DNA from: a virus
DNA length: 23,282 nt
Virus record (IMG/VR): IMGVR_UViG_3300046009_003687
Span: 1-23,282 of that record
Direction: 5' to 3' (one strand)
Part shown: piece after piece, positions 1,440 to 19,873 of the stretch
Numbering within the stretch: the first letter of the stretch is position 1
Layout of the letters: each line of letters begins with the position of its first letter
Notes under the pieces: model-generated
Database searches by the model: none
Seen by the model: the letters and a program-made list of their open reading frames with translations, nothing else
Told to the model about the DNA's origin: nothing
Made by a program: the position numbers and the translations under genes

Positions 1440-1652
1440 TCAGACGAGAGCGTCATTCAAGGACTTTCGGAAGGCTGTGCCAAACTTCTTCTCCAGCACT
1501 GGCCGCCATTTGTGGGCCACGCCATTCACCCTCCACATCTGCACAGCTGGGCCGCTAGGCACGCCTAGAGCCTTTGCCAATTTGGAGTAGCTGCCAGCCT
1601 GCTTGTGAGCAAAGGCATAGACCTGGTTGTAATACTGATCGTCTTTTGTCAT
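1440..1652 (-). CDS. YdaS/Cro-like helix-turn-helix regulator
   Basis: A 70-residue protein. Residues about 22-50 (SKLAKALGVPSGPAVQMWRV) form a Cro-type helix-turn-helix; the remainder (NGVAHKWRPVLEKKFG) matches the usual tail of YdaS-like proteins (PVxRxxxIExxxG in outline). In the Rac prophage, ydaS lies just upstream of ydaU, the DUF1376 gene, as here. It is the first gene of the leftward operon and faces the ERF operon across a 121-bp region, the position of Cro. The frame also opens at a TTG at 1679. I prefer the ATG at 1652, which lies 7 nt after TATAGT (minus strand), a possible -10 that would give a nearly leaderless mRNA. It presumably controls the divergent promoters. Confidence 0.72.
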   Translation of the reverse strand: MTKDDQYYNQVYAFAHKQAGSYSKLAKALGVPSGPAVQMWRVNGVAHKWRPVLEKKFGTAFRKSLNDALV

Positions 1653-1773
1653 GAGCTGGACTATATCACGAACTTGCAAGACGCCTAAAAATTTATTTTT
1701 GGAAAAAGCTATAAAATTTTGTTTTGTGTTGTATGATTCATTTCACCACAATCAACCACGAAAGGTAAACACG
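1653..1773. promoter_or_regulatory. divergent early control region between the Cro-like and ERF genes
   Basis: This is the only DNA between the two divergent early operons, and it is AT-rich at 1686-1740. Candidate elements are a leftward -10 (TATAGT, minus strand 1665-1660), a rightward -10 (TATGAT, 1732-1737), a perfect 8-bp palindrome CTTGCAAG (1673-1680), AAAATTTT (1713-1720), and ATGATTCAT (1733-1741) overlapping the rightward -10. No convincing -35 hexamer accompanies either -10, so activator-dependent or AT-rich-element promoters are possible. Promoter and operator roles follow from the gene arrangement more than from the motifs. Confidence 0.45.
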
Positions 1774-2421
1774 ATGGAAAAGCAAAACGTATATCAGTTG
1801 ATCTCTGCTGTAGCAGGAGAGCTTGCACAAGTAGGCATCGGAAAAAATCAGCGCAACTCACAGGGCACTGGATATAACTTTCGAGGCATCGACGACGTTT
1901 ACAACGCGATTGGCCCATTGCTGGCAAAGCACGGGCTGAGCATCCTTCCACGCACGCTTTTACGGGATTGCGTTGAGCGGGTCAGCGGACAAGGCAAGGC
2001 ACTGTTTTACGTGACTGTCGATATGGAATTTGACTTTGTGAGCGCACACGATGGCAGCAAGCACACAGTGAAAATGTACGGTGAGGCCATGGACTCTGGG
2101 GACAAGGCTACAAACAAAGCCATGAGTGCAGCCTACAAATATGCCATGTTTCAAGCCTTCTGCATTCCAACTGAAGGCGACAACGATGCGGATTCACAAA
2201 CCCACCAAGTGGCCGCAAGAAACACCGTGCCAGACGGTTATGGTGAGTTCGAGGCTGCCACTCTGCCAGCAATGCGTGAAGCCGCCCTGCAAGGTAGCGA
2301 GGCACTGGCCGCAGCGTTCCAGGCTTTGCCAAAGTCTGCGCACAAGGCAGCCTTCTGGCAAGCCCAAGGCCCAGCCCTCAAGAAGGCAGCCAAGAGCGCT
2401 GATGAGCAGGGGGCAGCATGA
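1774..2421 (+). CDS. erf: ERF-family single-strand DNA annealing protein
   Basis: A 215-residue protein of the ERF recombinase family (P22 Erf, 204 aa), which anneals complementary single strands for phage recombination and circularisation. Residues about 34-55 (GYNFRGIDDVYNAIGPLLAK) and 107-140 (GEAMDSGDKATNKAMSAAYK, followed by an FCIPTEGDNDAD segment) are the family signature. The C-terminal 60 residues are Ala-rich and variable, as in other members. The frame extends upstream to 1651, but AAAGG stands 8 nt before the ATG at 1774 and homologous sequence begins there. It is the first gene of the rightward early operon and overlaps the exonuclease gene by ATGA. Together the pair forms a two-component recombination system, like lambda Bet and Exo. 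Confidence 0.9.
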   Translation: MEKQNVYQLISAVAGELAQVGIGKNQRNSQGTGYNFRGIDDVYNAIGPLLAKHGLSILPRTLLRDCVERVSGQGKALFYVTVDMEFDFVSAHDGSKHTVKMYGEAMDSGDKATNKAMSAAYKYAMFQAFCIPTEGDNDADSQTHQVAARNTVPDGYGEFEAATLPAMREAALQGSEALAAAFQALPKSAHKAAFWQAQGPALKKAAKSADEQGAA

Positions 2422-3044
2422 GAGTCATTACCGCAGATCAAGGCACAGAAGAATGGAAGCAGGCACGTGTCGGTGTGCCTTCTGGCTCAAAGTTTAGCGA
2501 CATCATGGCCAAGGGAGGCGGGGCAACCCGCGCCACTTACTTGACCGCATTGGCATTGGAGCGCATCACCGGAGTGCGTGAAGAGTTCAAGACCACCTTC
2601 GCCATGGAACAGGGCACAGAGCGTGAGCCTTTCGCACGATCAGCATACGAGGCGCACACTGGCCAGTTTGTAACCGAGATCGGGTTCTGTATGCACGACA
2701 CGCTACAGGTCGGTGTTAGCCCTGATGGACTGGTAGGCAAGCCTGGGATGACCGAATACAAGTGCCCGATGCCCAAGACCCATCTGGAGTATTTGCGGCT
2801 TGAGCCAGGCAAGTGCCCGACGGCTTACCGCTGGCAGGTGCAAGGCCAGCTCTGGGTGGCCGAGCGCGAGTGGTGTGACTTCGTGTCCTACAACCCAGAT
2901 TTTCCAGAAAACGCCCAGCTCATCATTCGCCGGGTGGTGCGTGACGAGAAGGCCATCAAGGAACTGGAGGCCGAGGTAATCAAGTTCCTGGAAGACATTG
3001 AGCGCGAGGTTGATTTCATTCAGTCTTACAAGGATGCAGCATGA
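2418..3044 (+). CDS. YqaJ-like viral recombinase (lambda Exo-type nuclease)
   Basis: A 208-residue protein with the ordered motifs of the YqaJ/lambda-exonuclease branch of the PD-(D/E)XK fold: GTEEWKQARVGVPSGSKFSD (residues 9-28), MEQGTEREPFARSAYE with E70 (63-78), GVSPDGL with D103 (99-105), TEYKCP with E113 and K115 (112-117), and QVQGQLWV (140-147). All predicted catalytic and metal-binding positions are present. The expected role is 5'-to-3' resection of double-stranded DNA to make the single strand used by the ERF protein. The start overlaps the ERF stop (ATGA) behind an AGGGGG stretch. Length and motif order are typical. Confidence 0.9.
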   Translation: MRVITADQGTEEWKQARVGVPSGSKFSDIMAKGGGATRATYLTALALERITGVREEFKTTFAMEQGTEREPFARSAYEAHTGQFVTEIGFCMHDTLQVGVSPDGLVGKPGMTEYKCPMPKTHLEYLRLEPGKCPTAYRWQVQGQLWVAEREWCDFVSYNPDFPENAQLIIRRVVRDEKAIKELEAEVIKFLEDIEREVDFIQSYKDAA

Positions 3045-7993: not shown

Positions 7994-8202
7994 ACTGCTG
8001 CGACGAATACGGAAACTGCAACCAGGGCCGGGACTGCCCTTTGCGTGTGGCCAAGATCGGCAAGAAACTGCACGGGCCTGAGCTTTTGCCGCAGTCTGTG
8101 TGGCGGTACATGCTTAGGCGTGTGGCATGGTGGTTTGTCATGGGCATCCTGGGGATGCTCTGGCTTGCCTTTTTGGTGGCCTGCGCTGCTTATCTGGGTT
8201 AG
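7990..8202 (+). CDS. Cys-rich N-terminus plus membrane segment, conserved phage protein
   Basis: A 70-residue protein beginning MNCCDEYGNCNQGRDCPLRV. The CCDxYGNCxQGRDCPxR motif is widespread at the start of small phage proteins and probably binds a metal. Residues about 46-68 (AWWFVMGILGMLWLAFLVAC) form one membrane segment. It starts at GTG overlapping the previous TGA. It is the last gene of the rightward operon; its TAG overlaps the holin stop codon on the other strand by four bases, with no terminator visible between the two operons. Confidence 0.7.
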   Translation: MNCCDEYGNCNQGRDCPLRVAKIGKKLHGPELLPQSVWRYMLRRVAWWFVMGILGMLWLAFLVACAAYLG

Positions 8203-8609
8203 GCTTTGCCCTTGATGCGCTCAAAGGTGCGCAAGCCGCCCAAGCCCAACATGCCGGTCAGCAAGACCATCAGTGTCTCGTTGTCGATCGGTGGCAAAGG
8301 CGGCACGGAGCCACCAAAAACGGCCACCAGCCACGGCAAAACAGGCTGCAGGAGAAACTGGTACACCAGGCCAAAAACGCACGCCCAGCCGGTCGCTGGA
8401 CGCCAGCCGCCACGGAACATGTCGGTGCCAGCCTCGACCTTGTTGACCTCAATCTGGCCAAGGGCCATTTTGGTCTCTGCGTCCAGGACGGCCAGCTCGC
8501 CTTTCTGGGCCAGCTCCATGAGCTTGATCTTGGCTTCTGCGCTGGCCTGTGGGTCGGGTAGCACCTTCTCAAGGACGGTGCCGATCACTGGAATGAGTGC
8601 TTGCCACAT
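8199..8609 (-). CDS. holin, 3-TM GTA-holin-like family
   Basis: A 136-residue protein. Residues 1-62 are an N-terminal helical part (AEAKIKLMELAQKGELAVLD and onwards). The segment RGGWRPATGWACVFGLVYQF (67-86) leads into the first two membrane helices (about 73-99), and a third spans 111-127 (TLMVLLTGMLGLGGLRTF). The RPxTGW motif before the helices is typical of the holin family of three TMs related to gene-transfer-agent holins. It would form the membrane lesion that lets the endolysin out. GGAG stands 6 nt before the ATG. It is the last gene of the late operon here and is separated from its endolysin by a foreign HNH gene. Confidence 0.8.
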   Translation of the reverse strand: MWQALIPVIGTVLEKVLPDPQASAEAKIKLMELAQKGELAVLDAETKMALGQIEVNKVEAGTDMFRGGWRPATGWACVFGLVYQFLLQPVLPWLVAVFGGSVPPLPPIDNETLMVLLTGMLGLGGLRTFERIKGKA

Positions 8610-8669: not shown

Positions 8670-9131
8670 ATGAAAATTGGCGAGTTGCTAAACAACACGA
8701 AGCGTAGTGGAGATTGCATGATTTGGCAAGGTAATGTCATGTCAGATGGCTACGGTCGTGTGTACGTTGATCACAAACCATGGCGTGTGCATCGATTGAT
8801 CATTACATTGGTTACCGGGCAACCTATTCCAAAAGGCTATTTGGTTTGCCACACTTGCGATAGACCTTTGTGCTGCAACCCTGACCATTTGTTTCTAGGA
8901 ACGCCAAAACAAAACCATCATGATGCGATGGCCAAAGGTCGCCACACAAAAGGCGAAAAGGTCAATACTGCAAAATTAACCGAGCAACAGGTCATTGAAA
9001 TTTTGCATCGATGGCATACCGCAACAAAAAAGTACGGTCTTCATTCTTCGCTTGCGCGTGAGTTTGGTGTGACATCAGCCAATATTCGAGGCCTGGTACT
9101 TGGTAAGACTTGGAAGCATCTTCAGGGATAG
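8670..9131 (+). CDS. HNH homing-type endonuclease
   Basis: A 153-residue protein. Residues 38-82 carry an HNH_3 domain: VHRLIITLVTG, then LVCHTCDRPLCCNPDHLFLG with H61, C63, C68/C69, N70 and H73. Residues 103-148 form a C-terminal helix-turn-helix (TEQQVIEIL, then SLAREFGVTSANIRGLVLGK), likely a target-recognition domain. Free-standing HNH genes of this kind spread by cutting phage genomes that lack them. It lies on the strand opposite to the late genes, splits the endolysin from the holin, is AT-richer than they are, and its last 10 nt overlap the 3' end of the endolysin gene. No strong RBS precedes the ATG. Confidence 0.88.
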   Translation: MKIGELLNNTKRSGDCMIWQGNVMSDGYGRVYVDHKPWRVHRLIITLVTGQPIPKGYLVCHTCDRPLCCNPDHLFLGTPKQNHHDAMAKGRHTKGEKVNTAKLTEQQVIEILHRWHTATKKYGLHSSLAREFGVTSANIRGLVLGKTWKHLQG

Positions 9132-10533: not shown

Positions 10534-12975
10534 TTAAACCAAGTTCGCCATTGCTGCAAAAGTTGGTGTTGCTGGTGTCAGCGTCACTCCCACGTTGCTG
10601 CTGGCTGCGTTGGCACTGACTGTAATGGTGGACGCCGTAGTGTCAATGCTGAGAATACGAACCACGCCGCTGAACCCAGTTGCTGTAATGAAGATGCCTG
10701 GACCGTAACCGTCCAAAGAACTCACGTTTGTGATGATTGGGCTGGCGTTGGTGGTGTCACCCGTTGTTGTGGCAGCAGAGCCGTATTGACCAGAGGTTAA
10801 ACAAACTTTGCCGGGCGTTTGACCAGATGCCACCGCGCTGTTCAAAGCAATGTCGTGCTTTGTCCAGATTTTTGCCACGTTTGTTCCCGGCGTTCCACCT
10901 GAAAATTCTGTGTAAACCAAGGAGTTGTCGGTGTAATTGTTTTCAAATTCCAGGCACCTGCCGTAAAACAAAGCATCACTGCCTGATGTTTCAGTAGCGA
11001 GGAATGGAGTTGTTGCATCAAAAATGCTGTTTTCGTTTACGATCAAAGACCCGCCGCGTCTGTTTGTTGCAGTAATTGTTCCGGCTGACATTAAACGAGC
11101 AGTGTCGCTAGACAAGTTTCCAGAGGCAACAGTGATACCCGCAACACCTCCGTTTACAGTGTTGTTTGTAATTTTGGAAAATGGTGTGTTTTTCAACCTA
11201 ATAGCATTTGTTGAAAAAACACCAGAAATGAAATTATTTGAAATGTCGGCATTGAAACTCAGCCATTCAATGTCAATTCCCGTGGTGTAGTTGCCACTTA
11301 TATCATTTCCAGAAACAGTCACATAATCCGAAAAAGAAGCGTTTTTGAGTATGTCGGAAATTGCTATACCAATTGTCCAATAGCCTGAAATCTTATTGTT
11401 CAGAATTGTACAGTTTCTAAGTTTTTTACCGTTGCCAACGTTAATGCCAACGCCTCGCTTTGACGTAAATTCTTCTTCAGACCTGTTAACTTCATTGCCC
11501 TCAAAAAGCACATTGTCGTTTTCAATCAGTACAGCCGCATCGCAAGCAATGTCATTGCGTCCGTAGTCCACAATCCGATTGCCTTGCACAATAATGGCGT
11601 GGTCGTTTGTCACTGGCGATGTAACAAACCCTGAAACCGTGAATGGATTGACTCGGATGACAATTGCGCCAGAAGAAGCGTTTCCGTCTGCGCCGCCAGC
11701 ACCGCATCGCTCCAAATAGTTCCCGATGACTTGAACACCGATGACAGCGCGAATGTAGATGCCAGCACCCCAAGATGCGAACACACGGTTGCCGATCAAC
11801 ATGGACGCAGAGTTGTAAGTCGGCGCGGTTCCTGGGTCTGGGAAAGAACCCCTGTAAAGTTGAAAGCCGGTAATACAACCTTTAACGATGTTGTCTGAAA
11901 CCGTGCTAGGCATCTTGTTGTAAGTTTGCGACAATACGTCAATACCGATGTCCAATCCCGGAACCTCAACGTAGTTTCCGCTGATTAAATACTGACTGGA
12001 TGGAAGATTTGCACCTGATGGCTTGTACAAGTTTGCAATTCCACCTGTTCCAGCGTAGGCGGAGAAATTCGTATAGGTTCCAGCTAAGATTTGCGCAACC
12101 GTCTTACCTGTATCGGCGTATAGCCAGTTGTTCGTAATTTGGAAGTCTTGACACTCTCGGTACAAAATTCCAAATGTGAATTGGCGAATTGTGCATTCGC
12201 GAATTGCCCAACGAGAGCAATTGAACACATCCAAACAAGTGTTGCTTGCTCCAACAGCAACGCTGGAAGTCAACGGTACAGCCAGTTCTCTGGTGCGTGT
12301 GACGTTTTTAAAATTTAACCCTTGGATTGTCCAATCGTTTACGCCGTTTGCCACAACAAGACTGAAAGCTGCTCCAGTCGCCGTTGCATAGTTCAACCGC
12401 TCAATTTGACCAACGCCGATCCAATCAACATTGGATTTTTTCTGGATGCTGGCAGTGATGGCATAAATGCCTGCGGGAAAGTACAACTCAACAGGAACAC
12501 CCAAAGACGTGGCGTAATCTTCAGCATCTTGGATAGCTGACGTATCGTCCGTCACCCCATCGCCAACAGCACCGAAGTCTTTGACGCTGACGGTCTGGGC
12601 CAGTTTTTCGCAAACTGGGTATGGCACTGCGTCGGTGAATGGTGGGTCGTATGTCACACCGCAGGCGTCTGGGCTGATGCCAGTGCCGTCTGGGAAGTTG
12701 TAGACCATCGAGCCTTTGCTGTCCTGAACCAGGATGCTGAAGTTCACGCCATCGACGTAGATCTGGGCTGGTGTGCCTGCGCGTGAAATGTAGCCGTTGA
12801 GCGTGCGCAGTGGCTGTGCTGCTGGAATGGTGAGGGCTGAGTCGAAATAGGCCACGACCGGGTTGGTCTGCGGGTTTAGATTCGGTTCGCCAATCCAGAC
12901 GTAACCGTTCTCCAGTGGCTGCCCGTCGCGGCCTTGAAAGACCGGGAAGGGGACTTGGATCGAAAGTGCGGACAT
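10534..12975 (-). CDS. tailspike: P22-type head-binding domain plus pectate-lyase-like beta-helix
   Basis: An 813-residue protein. Residues 1-100 match the P22 tailspike head-binding domain (IQVPFPVFQGRDGQPLENGY, then YISRAGTPAQIYVDG). Residues about 128-152 (VSVKDFGAVGDGVTDDTSAI) begin the pectate-lyase-3 style right-handed beta-helix. Turns of the helix are visible from about 200 to 620 as repeated GN/NN motifs (SGNYVEV, IGNRVFAS, QGNRIVDY, EGNEVNRS, LNNKISGY, SGNDISGN). The last 120 residues are Thr/Ser/Gly-rich. It binds and probably cleaves host surface polysaccharide; the substrate is unknown and no catalytic pair can be assigned by eye. AGGAG is 9 nt before the ATG. This start region is duplicated at 14107-14143. 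Confidence 0.9.
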   Translation of the reverse strand: MSALSIQVPFPVFQGRDGQPLENGYVWIGEPNLNPQTNPVVAYFDSALTIPAAQPLRTLNGYISRAGTPAQIYVDGVNFSILVQDSKGSMVYNFPDGTGISPDACGVTYDPPFTDAVPYPVCEKLAQTVSVKDFGAVGDGVTDDTSAIQDAEDYATSLGVPVELYFPAGIYAITASIQKKSNVDWIGVGQIERLNYATATGAAFSLVVANGVNDWTIQGLNFKNVTRTRELAVPLTSSVAVGASNTCLDVFNCSRWAIRECTIRQFTFGILYRECQDFQITNNWLYADTGKTVAQILAGTYTNFSAYAGTGGIANLYKPSGANLPSSQYLISGNYVEVPGLDIGIDVLSQTYNKMPSTVSDNIVKGCITGFQLYRGSFPDPGTAPTYNSASMLIGNRVFASWGAGIYIRAVIGVQVIGNYLERCGAGGADGNASSGAIVIRVNPFTVSGFVTSPVTNDHAIIVQGNRIVDYGRNDIACDAAVLIENDNVLFEGNEVNRSEEEFTSKRGVGINVGNGKKLRNCTILNNKISGYWTIGIAISDILKNASFSDYVTVSGNDISGNYTTGIDIEWLSFNADISNNFISGVFSTNAIRLKNTPFSKITNNTVNGGVAGITVASGNLSSDTARLMSAGTITATNRRGGSLIVNENSIFDATTPFLATETSGSDALFYGRCLEFENNYTDNSLVYTEFSGGTPGTNVAKIWTKHDIALNSAVASGQTPGKVCLTSGQYGSAATTTGDTTNASPIITNVSSLDGYGPGIFITATGFSGVVRILSIDTTASTITVSANAASSNVGVTLTPATPTFAAMANLV

Positions 12976-13006
12976 TTACTGGTTCTCCTAGATGGTGGAT
13001 TGTCGC
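12970..13006. repeat. 37-bp direct repeat, copy B (before the tailspike)
   Basis: Matches 14107-14143 at 34 of 37 positions, including an identical 20-bp block (GGACATTTACTGGTTCTCCT) and an 11-bp block (TGGATTGTCGC). On the minus strand it reads as the RBS and ATGTCC start of the tailspike. It also retains codons RQS of the preceding ejection-protein end, now closed by an early TAG. An 18-codon frame (13044-12988, minus) ends in it; I do not regard that as a proven gene. Confidence 0.85.
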
Positions 13007-13053
13007 TTAAGGCTGCACGGGTGGTAATGCGTTGAAAACTCCATGACTTTTCC

Positions 13054-14049
13054 TTATTTTGAAAATGCTTGGACTTCAGCATTGGTCAGACGCTGCGGCC
13101 AGTACAAGAGTTTTTGAATACGTCCATTTAAAAACCCAGTGGTACTGCTAGTTGCTCCAAGCGTAATGCGATCTGGGGTGTTAAGCGTTGCGCTTGATGC
13201 AGTGCCGCCTGTACCACCATTCAGGTTGGCGGCATAAGAGCCAGCTTTATAAGCAGATGTGAGTTTTTGTTGTGCGGACGTGACAGCAGCAGCGCCGCAC
13301 GTCACGTTAGTTGACCCATTAAAAGAAAGCCAAGTAGTGCCGTTAGAGTACACGTCTGACACGCGACCGACAGTGTTATTGGCCCCGGCTTGGCTCACAT
13401 TGAACACGCGAGTATTTGTCGCAACAGTTGAGTCAGGGGTAAACCATGCTGCAAATGCTCCTTCAGTTGCGTTGTACCAACTGCTAAAGTTTGTTCCCGT
13501 CATGTTGGCGGCATCGGCATTGCGGGTGACCGCCGCGCCAGCTGTCGGAATAAATGATGTTGCAAATGAACCAAGCTCAAGCTGGGCAAATTGAACAGTT
13601 CCTGTCACCGTCAAAGTCAAAGAACCAGCAGACGGAGTAAACGTCAGCGTCGTGCGCGTTGGGTATGAGCCAGTGCCCGTGACAGTCGCAGAAGCAGCAC
13701 CAGACAGAACGATTTCACCATTTCCGTAAAACGACAGGGTTCTTGCTGCTGCGGTAACAGTTACCGATTGTGTTGCAAGGCTGGTTCCGTCTATAAGGCT
13801 GTTCAGCAGCACATTGGTGCGAGATTCTTCAATCAACAACCCACGGCAAGCAAGTGTTGTGGGGTTGTAGTCAAAGCGTGGAACATCAGCGTTGACAAGG
13901 GCAATTACACCAGACGAATTGATGACAGTCGCCGTATTACCAGAACGAGTAAACGTCACCCGCGAGTCAAGAGTTGCTGTCGTGAAATCAAGCGTAAGCC
14001 TTGGGAGTACGCGCTCGGTGGCAGTGATTGAATACGAAGGAGAAAGCAT
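13054..14049 (-). CDS. LamG-like phage adhesin / virion surface protein
   Basis: A 331-residue protein. Residues about 20-85 hold a pattern common in phage tail or surface proteins (DFTTATLDSRVTFTRSGNTA, then VPRFDYNPTTLACRGLLIEE and SRTN). Residues about 190-330 resemble a concanavalin/LamG-type jelly roll (GAFAAWFTPDSTV and onwards, ending in GRIQKLLYWPQRLTNAEVQA). Such domains bind carbohydrate, so a second receptor-binding protein is likely. AAGGAG stands 5 nt before the ATG. The gene sits between two copies of a 37-bp direct repeat, which points to modular insertion between the last ejection gene and the tailspike. Confidence 0.75.
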   Translation of the reverse strand: MLSPSYSITATERVLPRLTLDFTTATLDSRVTFTRSGNTATVINSSGVIALVNADVPRFDYNPTTLACRGLLIEESRTNVLLNSLIDGTSLATQSVTVTAAARTLSFYGNGEIVLSGAASATVTGTGSYPTRTTLTFTPSAGSLTLTVTGTVQFAQLELGSFATSFIPTAGAAVTRNADAANMTGTNFSSWYNATEGAFAAWFTPDSTVATNTRVFNVSQAGANNTVGRVSDVYSNGTTWLSFNGSTNVTCGAAAVTSAQQKLTSAYKAGSYAANLNGGTGGTASSATLNTPDRITLGATSSTTGFLNGRIQKLLYWPQRLTNAEVQAFSK

Positions 14050-14058
14050 TTTTTCTCC

Positions 14059-14112
14059 TTAGATCAGAAACTCAATGATTGAGCACGGTGGCTTGACTTC
14101 AATCGTGGACAT
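14059..14112 (-). other. 17-codon open frame at the duplicated start site
   Basis: It reads MSTIEVKPPCSIIEFLI and starts at the ATG adjoining the ejection-protein stop (TAAATG), with the same RBS and ATGTCC context as the tailspike start; its TAA overlaps the RBS of the adhesin gene. It may be a leader peptide, a stub of a displaced gene, or meaningless. Confidence 0.3.
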
Positions 14113-14143
14113 TTACTGGTTCTCCTGGGTGATGGATTGTCGC
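14107..14143. repeat. 37-bp direct repeat, copy A (end of the ejection-protein gene)
   Basis: This copy lies in coding sequence. It encodes the last residues (RQSITQENQ) and stop of the 810-residue ejection protein, followed by ATGTCC. The other copy, 1137 bp away, lies directly at the tailspike start. Confidence 0.85.
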
Positions 14144-16545
14144 CCTGTTTGAAGTGCGCTTTGCAAAAATTGAATTCTTGCATCAAGAGATTGTGGCAGG
14201 TTTGCCTCTTTTGCGAAATCCCCAAAAGACTTGCTCATGGCAGCACTGCGAATGGCAGATTGGCTTGGTTGGCCGCCTTTGGAGGCAGCTTGAACGGCCA
14301 ATTCTTGGAACTCTGGCGAGGCAAAAAGTTTTGCCGCTTTTTGCACTCCAGCTCCTTTGGTTGCCGACATCCATTGCACAATATCTGGCGCTACCAATCC
14401 CCCGCCAGGCACCATGCTGGTTACGCCGGTGACGGCACGCTGCGCCATGCTGCTGGACATAATTCGCCCAAACAATCCATCAATTGCAGCCTCACCAAGA
14501 ATTTGGTTGGCCTTGCCGGTTGTCGGGATGCGAGCTTGAGCGTCAGCAATGCGCCTAGAAATCTCGTAAAGGTCACGCGATGCGCGATCCCACTCTGGAC
14601 CCATGATTTTGACCATCTGGGAGTAGACTGGAGGATTGGCGCGAAGACCGCGATAGACCTTGGTGAACTCAGCAGGGCTGAACACGGTCTCGGCAGCGCC
14701 GGTAGCACGGCCAGCGGCTTTTCCAGCGGTCACAGATGCAAGCGCGGTGGCTAGCGTCTCCTTTTGCAGCTCTGCTGGCACTACCTTCATCAGACGATTA
14801 AAAACGGCAGCATCACCTTTGGCAGCTGTGCTGATAGCTGTCTGCATACGTTGGGCTACGCTGCCATCAATCTCCTGGCCGAATGCCCCGACGATGCGTT
14901 TTTCCAGCGCCTTCTGCTTGGCTGTAAGCAAGTTGGCCGCACGCAACTCACGTCGAGCTTCTTCGCCAGCCAAAGAGGCTACGTTGTCAAGTTGATCTTT
15001 TGCCAATGCTCCGTATAGGCTTTTTAAAGAGCCTTTGGTCATATTCTCATATGGAGATTTACCGCCTTCAAGAGCTTGGCCAACTGCTGCTTTTTCGCGC
15101 ATAAAACCAAAATAGGTCAGCTCTCCGTTTTCGAGCATCTTTGCCAGGTTGGATTCTTGCTGAGTCATACGGCCTGCTGGGCCAAGATTTGTGCGCAGGC
15201 CATCAAGGTAGGCTTTTACATTGTTCAGGTCAACTGGTGCGTTCTTTGGAACAACCTCATCAATTCGGTCATAAATGCTTTTGGCGTCAGACTTCAGCGT
15301 TTCCCTGGTTTGTTGCAGCGTATCCACAATTTTCTGTGATGTAAGCCCTGTGGCTGGCCTGCCTTCGATAAAAGCAGCATCGAACTGTTGGGATACATCG
15401 TCGGCCCGCTGAATGGCATTGCGCACGGTTCCTTCCCATGCTGCCTCAGCTTCGCCTGCAACCAGTGCGCGGGTCAGGCCCACGGCGCTGCGCACCTGTG
15501 GGTTGTCGCTGAACACATCAAATGGCAAATCCATGCCAAGGCGCTCGGCGGCTGCACGGGCTTCTGGGTTAACTTGGGCAAGATCAACCAGTTTGGCTTT
15601 CGCCGAAGTTGAACCTGGGCCAAAACTTGATGCCTTGCGTGCCAAGTTCAAAACATCAGTAACGCCAGCTTCTGCAACATCTGCCGCAACGGGTGACGCT
15701 GCGGTTGCTGCTGGTGCGACTGGTGCGGCCTCTGGCATGGCTGTGGCCACTGGTGCTGCTGGTGGGGCTTCTGGGGCCATTGCTGTGCCCATTGAAGCTC
15801 CTGGCGCTCCTGCTGCTGGCGCAGGTGCTGGTGCACGGCCTGTGACGCGCCGCGCACCCTGTTTGACTGCTTGGACAACTGGAGGTGCCACGCGCTGCAA
15901 AATTTGACCTGCTGGGCCTGTGGCTGCTGCCAATCCAATCTCTGTTGGGCTTGCAGTTCCACCTGTACCGGCTTGGGATAACTCAATGGCTGTTTGAGTT
16001 GCGCCAGCGCCCAAAATTGCACCAGGGATAGTTGCGGCTCGGCCTGCTGGTAAGAAGGCTGCGATGCCACCAATTGCCCGTGGAATGTCACCCATCGTGA
16101 AGCCTGGTGGGATTGCGTATTCTTTTTGATCGACAGATGAACGCATCAAGTAATTGCCCTTGGCATCTTGACGAACTTGCACACCAGGAAAATTGGCTTG
16201 CAGAATCTGCACCGTTTCCTTGGGGTTGCTCATCAAAGTGCCAAGCGCTGTCTTGAACGATGCCACGCTCATTGAGTTCAGCTCTGGCATCATGGTCCAC
16301 TCTGGCAGTGTTTGAGTCTCAGGCGTTGCACGTGCGCGACCAGTAACCGACTCGGCCAAGTTCGCCAAAAATCCTGTTGGCTGTTCAGTTTGTGGTGTTG
16401 GTTGTGCTGGTGGTTCCAGTGCAGCTGCACCACCACCAGCACGAATAGAGGCCACCCGAGCTTTTAGCTCAGGCGAATCAGGTGAAACGTCATCAGGAAT
16501 GTTGTTGATGGTGATGCCATCTTTGGTCGTGATGGAGTAGGCCAT
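14113..16545 (-). CDS. large DNA-ejection (pilot) protein, P22 gp16 position
   Basis: An 810-residue protein in the place of P22 gene 16, after the other ejection genes and before the tailspike. N-terminus MAYSITTKDGITINNIPDDV; residues about 152-195 are hydrophobic and Gly/Ala-rich (PRAIGGIAAFLPAGRAATIP and on), possibly membrane-interacting. Residues about 232-300 are a Pro/Ala/Met low-complexity linker. The remainder is helical. Such proteins leave the virion with the DNA and enter or cross the cell envelope; P22 gp16 has 609 residues, so this one is longer. Its ATG lies one base after the previous stop (TGATATG) without a strong RBS, suggesting reinitiation. Assignment is from position and composition. 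Confidence 0.7.
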   Translation of the reverse strand: MAYSITTKDGITINNIPDDVSPDSPELKARVASIRAGGGAAALEPPAQPTPQTEQPTGFLANLAESVTGRARATPETQTLPEWTMMPELNSMSVASFKTALGTLMSNPKETVQILQANFPGVQVRQDAKGNYLMRSSVDQKEYAIPPGFTMGDIPRAIGGIAAFLPAGRAATIPGAILGAGATQTAIELSQAGTGGTASPTEIGLAAATGPAGQILQRVAPPVVQAVKQGARRVTGRAPAPAPAAGAPGASMGTAMAPEAPPAAPVATAMPEAAPVAPAATAASPVAADVAEAGVTDVLNLARKASSFGPGSTSAKAKLVDLAQVNPEARAAAERLGMDLPFDVFSDNPQVRSAVGLTRALVAGEAEAAWEGTVRNAIQRADDVSQQFDAAFIEGRPATGLTSQKIVDTLQQTRETLKSDAKSIYDRIDEVVPKNAPVDLNNVKAYLDGLRTNLGPAGRMTQQESNLAKMLENGELTYFGFMREKAAVGQALEGGKSPYENMTKGSLKSLYGALAKDQLDNVASLAGEEARRELRAANLLTAKQKALEKRIVGAFGQEIDGSVAQRMQTAISTAAKGDAAVFNRLMKVVPAELQKETLATALASVTAGKAAGRATGAAETVFSPAEFTKVYRGLRANPPVYSQMVKIMGPEWDRASRDLYEISRRIADAQARIPTTGKANQILGEAAIDGLFGRIMSSSMAQRAVTGVTSMVPGGGLVAPDIVQWMSATKGAGVQKAAKLFASPEFQELAVQAASKGGQPSQSAIRSAAMSKSFGDFAKEANLPQSLDARIQFLQSALQTGRQSITQENQ

Positions 16546-17921: not shown

Positions 17922-18767
17922 TTAGACCTTGCTGTAATCGACCATCAAGTAGCCGCCGGACTCGGAAACAGCACCAGGGTAAATGGTCTGGACTTCTTGA
18001 GCCATGAGGCCAATTTGACGACCACCGCCCCAGACATAATCGAATTCGTAGACGTTCAAGCCATCTGGTCGTGTGCTGATCTGCTTGATGTTTTTCTTGA
18101 GGCGACGATCGCTGAACATATTGCCGAAGCCCATGCCAGCCTTACCGCCTGCGCCATACTGCATTCCGAGGAACTGCGCTGGCATGTTCAAGATCTGGCC
18201 GTAGGCTTTGGCCTGGCCGAGTTCGCCGCCTGCGAGGGCTGCGCCTTGCTGAGACAGCAAGTTGGCCACGTTTGTGCCTGTTTCCATGCCAGCAGCGCCG
18301 ACACCGGCAGCGGAGCGTTGGCCCAAGGTGGTCATGCCACCGAGTCGGCTGTATTGCTGCTCGAGGGCTTGATTTAGGAGTGCAGGGCGAAACTGTGCCA
18401 GTGCGCCCTGAATGTTGCCGCCACGCAAGCCTCCAGTGGCTGATGCGTTTTGCAAAAGTGCGTTTTCTCCCTGGCGCATGGCCTCTTGAAACCTAGCACC
18501 ACTGCTGATGCGATCAATGGCGGCCTGCTCTGCCTCTGGGCCACGGAGACCCAAGAAGGCTTGCTGTTGCTCTAAGGCTGGGACGCCTGCCTCTGTGTAG
18601 GGCTTGAGCAGGGCTTGCAGTGCGTCAAATTGGCGACGCTGTTCTGCTACGCCTTTGTCTGCTGCTCCAGCTTGAATGTTGGCTGCGTCTTCTGCTGCGT
18701 CGGCTTGCATCATGCCGCCGACGACTTGTGTTCCGCCCACAACTAGGGCCGTTACTGGATCAGGCAT
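17922..18767 (-). CDS. DNA-transfer protein with C-terminal S74-like chaperone segment
   Basis: A 281-residue protein at the P22 gp7/gp14 position. The N-terminal part is Ala/Gly-rich and hydrophobic (ALVVGGTQVVGGMMQADAAE), followed by helices with EQRRQFDALQALLKPYTEAG, the pattern of proteins labelled DNA transfer protein. From residue 219 it changes to SDRRLKKNIKQI, followed by YEFDYVW and IGLMAQEVQTIYPGAV, the signature of the intramolecular chaperone / peptidase S74 domain, in which Ser and Lys of SDxRLK cut the chain before that Ser. The segment is only 63 residues, without the usual helical C-terminal part. AAGGAG precedes the ATG; it overlaps the upstream gene by 8 nt. Confidence 0.78.
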   Translation of the reverse strand: MPDPVTALVVGGTQVVGGMMQADAAEDAANIQAGAADKGVAEQRRQFDALQALLKPYTEAGVPALEQQQAFLGLRGPEAEQAAIDRISSGARFQEAMRQGENALLQNASATGGLRGGNIQGALAQFRPALLNQALEQQYSRLGGMTTLGQRSAAGVGAAGMETGTNVANLLSQQGAALAGGELGQAKAYGQILNMPAQFLGMQYGAGGKAGMGFGNMFSDRRLKKNIKQISTRPDGLNVYEFDYVWGGGRQIGLMAQEVQTIYPGAVSESGGYLMVDYSKV

Positions 18768-19277: not shown

Positions 19278-19307
19278 GCTTGCTTTTGCAAGCTCCTATC
19301 GTAAAAT
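19278..19307 (+). promoter_or_regulatory. promoter candidate with perfect hairpin upstream of the second HNH gene
   Basis: TTGCTT (19280-19285), 16 bp, TAAAAT (19302-19307), directed toward the HNH gene. A perfect 6-bp inverted repeat (GCTTGC, TTTT, GCAAGC; 19278-19293) covers the -35. The 184-nt gap 19210-19393 is the longest non-coding stretch in the window; nothing else clear was seen in it. Confidence 0.4.
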
Positions 19308-19393
19308 GCTCTGGCAGCTTACCCGACGGGGGACAGGCGATTCATCACCGCTTGCTGCATCTTTCGATGACTTCCACTCCGATGAGGTGCGAC

Positions 19394-19873
19394 ATGATTA
19401 CACACACACGCCTGCGCGAGCTTGCGCATTACTGCCCAGAAACCGGGCAATTTACTCACTTGCAGTCCAAAGGACGGAAAAAAGCTGGTATGCCTGCCGG
19501 GTCGCTTCGCAGCGATGGCTACGTCTACGTCATGTTTGACGGCTTTCGTGCGATGGCACACCAGTTTGCATGGCTGTACGTGACTGGCGAATGGCCAACG
19601 CAAGAGATTGACCACATTGACGGCAACAAGGCCAACAATGCATTTTCTAACTTGCGGCAGGTAAGCAGGCGAATGAACACCGAGAACAAGCACATGGCCA
19701 AGAGCACCAGCACAACTGGTTTGCTTGGGGTGATAAGGCATCGACATAAGTTTGTTGCTCGTATCGTCAGCGAAGGCAAGCGCACATATCTTGGCATCTT
19801 TGAGACGCCAGAGGCTGCTCATGAGGCCTACGTGCAGGCAAAACGACGCTTGCATCATGGTTGCACCATTTAA
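19394..19873 (+). CDS. HNH homing-type endonuclease with AP2 domain
   Basis: A 159-residue protein. Residues 55-98 are the HNH core: AHQFAWLYVTGEWPTQEIDH with D73 and H74, then IDGNKANNAFSNLRQVSRRM with D76, N78 and N86. Residues about 107-155 are an AP2-type DNA-binding domain (TGLLGVIRHRHKFVARIVSE, then TYLGIFETPEAAHEAYV). HNH plus AP2 is a standard architecture for free-standing homing endonucleases of phages. The frame is open upstream to 19280 with other ATGs at 19367 and 19382; I use 19394 because GAGGTG precedes it and homologous sequence begins there. It is opposite to the late genes; its TAA overlaps the stop of the Cys-rich late gene (TTAA). Confidence 0.88.
   Translation: MITHTRLRELAHYCPETGQFTHLQSKGRKKAGMPAGSLRSDGYVYVMFDGFRAMAHQFAWLYVTGEWPTQEIDHIDGNKANNAFSNLRQVSRRMNTENKHMAKSTSTTGLLGVIRHRHKFVARIVSEGKRTYLGIFETPEAAHEAYVQAKRRLHHGCTI

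Follow-up and report, generated by a model that had tools for sequence, protein, structure and literature searches.

Candidate tandem receptor-binding cassettes and a probable adaptor relic at a repeated junction in an environmental phage

We analyzed a 23,282-base stretch of viral DNA (the window), which constitutes one IMG/VR virus record (IMGVR_UViG_3300046009_003687), around a 37-bp direct repeat that brackets the gene of a LamG-type adhesin. Very probably, the region contains a pair of tandem receptor-binding cassettes, of which the first has lost its adaptor gene by an internal in-frame deletion and the second brought along a leader typical of phages with another class of ejection gene. 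Three observations carry this reading, namely the identity of both ends of a 17-codon relic, the nearest relatives of each leader, and intact versions of the arrangement in related phages. These relatives are viral contigs, that is, fragments, and their ejection genes are classed here as EJ1, EJ2 or other by BLAST matches to three reference ejection proteins.

Two repeat copies and the genes they lead

The two copies of the repeat, A (14107-14143, minus strand) and B (12970-13006, minus strand), are identical at 34/37 positions with a start-to-start spacing of 1137 bases, as described in the initial annotation. The best 37-base direct match in 40 first-order Markov resamples of the window reached 22-26. 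The gene boundaries reported there were also right, with the ejection open reading frame (ORF) at 14113-16545, the adhesin at 13054-14049 and the tailspike at 10534-12975, all on the minus strand. In related viral contigs, AGGAGAACCAGTAAATGTCC stands before adaptor genes. Leader matches with up to three mismatches were found in 74 distinct contexts, and an adaptor gene is opened in all of them except at copy A of the window and at two chance matches. Judged from these comparisons, the repeat is a conserved receptor-binding protein junction composed of an upstream gene end, a ribosome-binding site (RBS) and ATGTCC. Besides this phage, no second genome with two such junctions was found among the fetched loci. 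The element contains AGGAG, and stop and start signals overlap or abut in most genomes, as would be expected if it were conserved for its own function, as an RBS and coupling signal that recurs without recombination. We consider this improbable, as EJ2-type phages keep an in-frame copy of the last EJ1-type codons where these are non-coding, and the adaptor phylogeny changes backgrounds repeatedly.

Copy B forms part of a 76-nucleotide (nt) tailspike leader (12970-13045, minus strand), in which the stub of an EJ2 gene end (CAACGCATTACCACCCGTGCAGCCTTAA) is followed by the stub of an EJ1-type end, the RBS and ATGTCC. The entire leader, EJ2 stub included, is identical at 69/76 positions to those of four related contigs (L006, L075, L233 and L238). 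For copy B itself, the nearest outside match (36/37) is to leaders of long tailspikes in EJ2-class phages, and its likeness to outside sequences continues upstream of the repeat for about another 39 bases, which had initially been missed. Its in-frame codons RQSTI run into a TAG within what is a non-coding leader, and this TAG is a substitution in a non-coding stub. A short ORF in a frame other than that of the EJ2 stub (13044-12986, minus strand; MEFSTHYHPCSLKRQSTI and stop) is cut by the same TAG; in the four related leaders the equivalent short ORF, MKPSTHCHPCSLERQSTIQENQ and stop, ends at the tailspike start.

The tailspike opened by copy B (813 residues) comprises a P22-type head-binding adaptor (approximately residues 1-102) and a pectate-lyase-like beta-helix body (PF12708, 9e-16; PF13229, 7e-12). 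The window's tailspike alone gave no Pfam match in the adaptor region. A profile of the adaptor matched the PDB entries 2vky (3.6e-6), 2vnl (4.2e-6) and 1lkt (7.4e-6), and the adaptor of the related contig L228 passes the PF09008 cut-off (25.8 versus 24). Residues 1-102 are thus homologous to the head-binding domain of the P22 tailspike. In a tree of adaptors, the five nearest rows to that of the window all belong to EJ2-type phages. Because leader and nearest adaptors are both of the EJ2 type, an EJ2-type phage is the most likely source of the tailspike together with its leader.

Copy A comprises the 3' end of the EJ1 gene, whose last codons RQSITQENQ and stop lie within the repeat, followed by the RBS and ATGTCC. 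Its top outside match (36/37) is the short-adaptor leader of L228, with 56/61 identities when extended into the gene start. Compared with EJ1 gene ends, it has 31-32 matches at best, with gaps allowed, as most EJ1 ends are three bases shorter. Because it is closer to the short-adaptor leader than to the EJ1 ends, copy A probably belongs to the leader lineage of the adaptor cassette, and its stub may have been either received or donated by the EJ1 end of the window. Each copy thus appears to lead a cassette of its own, because their nearest outside relatives differ; the flanks differ as well, and we found no sign that both copies derive from one ancestral site. A target-site duplication by a mobile element was also considered and dropped, since A and B have different nearest relatives.

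Copy A opens a 17-codon ORF (14112-14059, minus strand; MSTIEVKPPCSIIEFLI and stop) that was absent from the initial annotation. In an unbiased two-strand scan of all fetched DNA, the top matches to its first 27 nt (22-24/27) are all adaptor starts and those to its last 30 nt (23-26/30) are all adaptor ends, with four contigs (L174, L157, L257 and L235) present in both lists. The first nine codons match MSTIEVQPP-type adaptor starts directly after the junction (24/27 nt), and the last codons together with the downstream GGAGAA match the short-adaptor end S[VI]IEFL[VI] and stop (26/30 nt). With 17 codons left, no complete head-binding domain is present. By these matches, the ORF is most likely a non-working relic of a stand-alone adaptor gene of about 161 codons, from which about 144 codons were deleted in frame. 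No clear microhomology is visible at the deletion point, where 1-2 bases at most are arguable by eye, and a gapped pattern search of IMG/VR returned no further contig with such a relic besides the second contig of this phage. The ORF could alternatively be a functional leader peptide or translational relay, selected to pass ribosomes from the ejection gene to the adhesin start. Start, stop and RBS spacing are indeed kept, and the deletion is in frame, but one in three random deletions would be in frame by chance, and the arrangement is seen in one phage only. We regard such a role as possible though doubtful; as to origin, it would be compatible with an adaptor relic rather than opposed to it.

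Intact cassettes and adaptor genes in relatives

The adhesin downstream of the relic (331 residues; phrog_5939, a tail protein, 1.8e-49) combines an N-terminus resembling the RcGTA head spike fibre (PDB 6tb9 chain F3, 2.4e-9) with a C-terminal LamG/ConA-like lectin domain. The match to PF13385 (1.1e-4) lies under the curated cut-off. A structure model of the adhesin, of low confidence (pLDDT 60) and used for fold class alone, retrieved CBM40, pentraxins and LamG domains in Foldseek at E <= 1e-4, and the C-terminal half is thus predicted to have a lectin fold. In three relatives (L086, L275 and L268), an ejection gene, an intact short adaptor and an adhesin homologue follow each other in this order behind a single junction. 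The homologues share 61% (L086), 74% (L275, where the contig ends within the compared stretch) and 56% (L268) identity with the adhesin of the window. In many relatives the gene ahead of the adhesin, be it a short adaptor or another tail-fibre gene, ends in an APPxxSxIE motif; in others the adhesin is preceded by a long tailspike or an unrelated gene. Comparison with relatives supports the initial proposal that the adhesin is a mobile module. By analogy with anchor-branched systems of Klebsiella phages, the short adaptor may serve to attach the adhesin to the virion. Deprived of it, the adhesin would be an orphan or be held by a different mount, and, given its intact ORF, the adaptor may have been lost recently. 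In two relatives with different ejection gene classes (L054 and L062), both a p117 homologue and a fibre of about 230-245 residues lie between ejection gene and tailspike, and this pair of genes represents a further shared insert at the site.

These comparisons bear on the proposal of the initial annotation that the present tailspike once directly followed the ejection gene, and that the adhesin was inserted with duplication of the junction. Phages with a single junction are common, with 83 of 153 distinct adaptor genes lying directly behind EJ1 homologues, and copies A and B are very similar to each other. This part of the proposal thus holds for many relatives, but most likely not for the tailspike of the window, the leader of which follows EJ2-type leaders for 39 bases past the repeat. 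In addition, copy A is nearer to an outside leader (36/37) than to copy B (34/37), the start of a different adaptor gene stands after it, and intact cassettes have the adhesin behind an adaptor rather than behind a bare junction. The absence of the repeat from adhesin-bearing relatives had been named as an observation that would speak against the proposal, and this is partly the case, with no second such junction in L086, L275 and L268. Duplication of the junction by adhesin insertion is thus largely refuted, and we give it very little weight.

The remaining adaptor genes compared include 54 behind EJ2 homologues and one, that of the window, behind an adhesin. The gap between EJ1 and adaptor genes is mostly 0, -1 or -4, with a junction that usually reads TAAATG or TAATG, and most EJ2 genes are separated from the adaptor by a leader of 30-70 nt. 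The distal parts vary widely, and gene products range from 160 to 882 residues. Short stand-alone adaptors of 160-167 residues stand out as a class of their own, with 36 of the 128 complete genes, and most of them end in APPxxS[VI]IEF[LV][VI] and stop. In three contigs (L035, L071 and L087), two or three spike genes with an adaptor follow each other in tandem. In EJ2-type phages, the leader past the EJ2 stop (NALPPVQP and stop) reads ERQSTIQENQ and stop, like an EJ1-type gene end, and in L006 and L233 an EJ2 stub and an EJ1-type stub both lie behind another EJ2 variant. The most economical reading of these sequences is that adaptor genes changed backgrounds and carried the 3' stub of their former neighbor along. 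Indeed, the adaptor tree contains 21 switches between EJ1 and EJ2 backgrounds, and in a three-way grouping (EJ1, EJ2 and other) no fewer than 15 changes each are required for EJ1 and for EJ2 when starred branches alone are counted.

Proposed recombination between cassettes

The window would thus belong to a group of P22-like environmental phages, in which the repeat marks the junction ahead of adaptor-bearing genes. Cassette 1 would once have consisted of the ejection gene, a short adaptor protein that held the adhesin on the virion, and the adhesin. Its adaptor would then have shed about 144 codons in frame, leaving 17 with start and stop, followed by the RBS of the adhesin. Cassette 2 would be a complete adaptor-tailspike fusion with its own 76-nt leader from an EJ2-class phage, and loss of the first adaptor may have been tolerated since the tailspike has an adaptor of its own. 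Cassettes would be exchanged at the short junction homology by Erf-type annealing recombination. Crossover at homology this short appears plausible from the gene content, because the phage encodes both an ERF-family annealing protein (1651-2421; PF04404, 1e-22) and a YqaJ-type nuclease (2418-3044; PF09588, 1.4e-24), a pair located at 1651-3044 on the plus strand. Erf-type recombinases exchange diverged DNA, and for Red-beta a minimum of 30 bp is cited (PMC3945230). As initially suggested, recombination between A and B could remove the adhesin. Such an event would excise the relic along with it and return the region to the common single-junction layout, with the EJ1 end predicted to be joined to GCACTTTCG across one junction; no derivative of this kind was found among the fetched loci.

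We also considered that the common leader might have led the assembly to join contigs of two co-occurring phages. The leader is indeed common to many environmental phages, but the same joints are present in a second IMG/VR contig (L240, 12507 bases), possibly from a related sample, which is 100% identical to the window across 11162 bases, both repeat copies included. This contig extends beyond the end of the window, and the arrangement was thus assembled at least twice. The relic, moreover, lies within sequence unique to this phage. An assembly artefact is therefore highly improbable, yet a small chance of chimerism at the common leader persists even with the agreement of the second contig, and this counts against two tandem cassettes. 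Several further points do so as well. Transfer may have run in the opposite direction, with a window-like EJ1 end as the donor of the stub of the EJ2 phages. The intact adhesin ORF is consistent with a recent loss of the partner or with continued use of the adhesin in another way. We found no parent genome whose flanks match, and the adaptor tree, with 297 columns, has many weak branches. It is also conceivable, if unlikely, that the junction is a dedicated exchange point for cassettes. The leaders would then record past swaps in layers, as successive stubs of upstream genes (an EJ1-type end, then an EJ2 end, followed by the adhesin or another EJ2 variant), and the adhesin would still be mounted by the adaptor of the tailspike or another virion protein.

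Known systems and neighboring genes

Few parts of phage genomes are exchanged as often as receptor-binding genes, and to our knowledge the exact crossover points are rarely visible in such exchanges. Here, the joints can be read as a common leader of about 37 bp, nested 3' stubs of former neighbors and a gene cut down to its two ends. With more than 150 adaptor genes, they provide a countable system in which to study the contribution of short homology and phage recombinases to changes of host range in environmental phages.

That receptor-binding modules are swapped by way of adaptors is well known (PMC8262889, PMC10684548). Our analysis adds a sequence-level record of the joints, a class of stand-alone P22-type adaptors, and a genome with two cassettes and one relic adaptor. 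In the modular receptor-binding proteins of Klebsiella phages, an N-terminal anchor is likewise common to different distal parts, and a separate anchor protein can carry another receptor-binding protein; anchor, anchor-branched and intermediate systems are distinguished there, and truncated first or second proteins are described as intermediates between architectures (PMC6872550; PMC8262889). In contrast, the anchor described here is of the P22 head-binding type, the separate anchor retains 17 codons and no anchor domain, and a LamG-type fibre takes the place of a depolymerase as the distal protein. The P22 head-binding domain itself (PF09008; 2vky, 1lkt) is homologous to the adaptors of both the tailspike and the short stand-alone proteins, but here it also occurs as a free protein of about 161 residues, the C-terminus of which is different and has a weak DUF4183 match. 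The RcGTA head spike fibre Rcc01080 (PDB 6tb9), which attaches to another protein by its N-terminus (PMC10218006), matches the N-terminus of the adhesin, and both look like sugar-binding fibres. Unlike in RcGTA, the upstream partner of the adhesin in relatives is a tail-type adaptor or fibre. Conserved short sequences at the boundaries of phage modules can similarly be used for homologous exchange (PMC3029335), whereas the boundary in our window seems to be left over from earlier upstream genes and is present twice within the genome.

On the minus strand, genes for a head closure protein, smaller proteins, a P22 gp7-like protein and a 456-residue protein precede the EJ1 gene, the adhesin and the tailspike, which are followed by small proteins and lysis genes. 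The EJ1-class protein (810 residues) matches phrog_6704, a family of unknown function, and its role in ejection is suggested by its position behind the gp7-like gene. A search of 50,697 GenBank phage records with the region gave two weak matches and no parent. In bacterial genomes, searched for a host, two matches were found, both to short contigs (metagenome-assembled genomes of an uncultured Burkholderiales and of Anabaena).

Peptidase_S74 domains, which act as intramolecular chaperones, usually reside in tail fibres. The P22 gp7-like ejection protein (17922-18767, minus strand) carries such a domain at its C-terminus, and its phrog_6121 match is near full-length. Two free-standing HNH_3 endonuclease genes, one of them with a weak AP2-like match, are located at 8670-9131 and 19280-19873 on the plus strand, opposite to the late genes. 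A GTA_holin_3TM homologue is encoded at 8199-8609 (minus strand; 8.3e-23), and the N-terminus of the adhesin likewise resembles a GTA protein.

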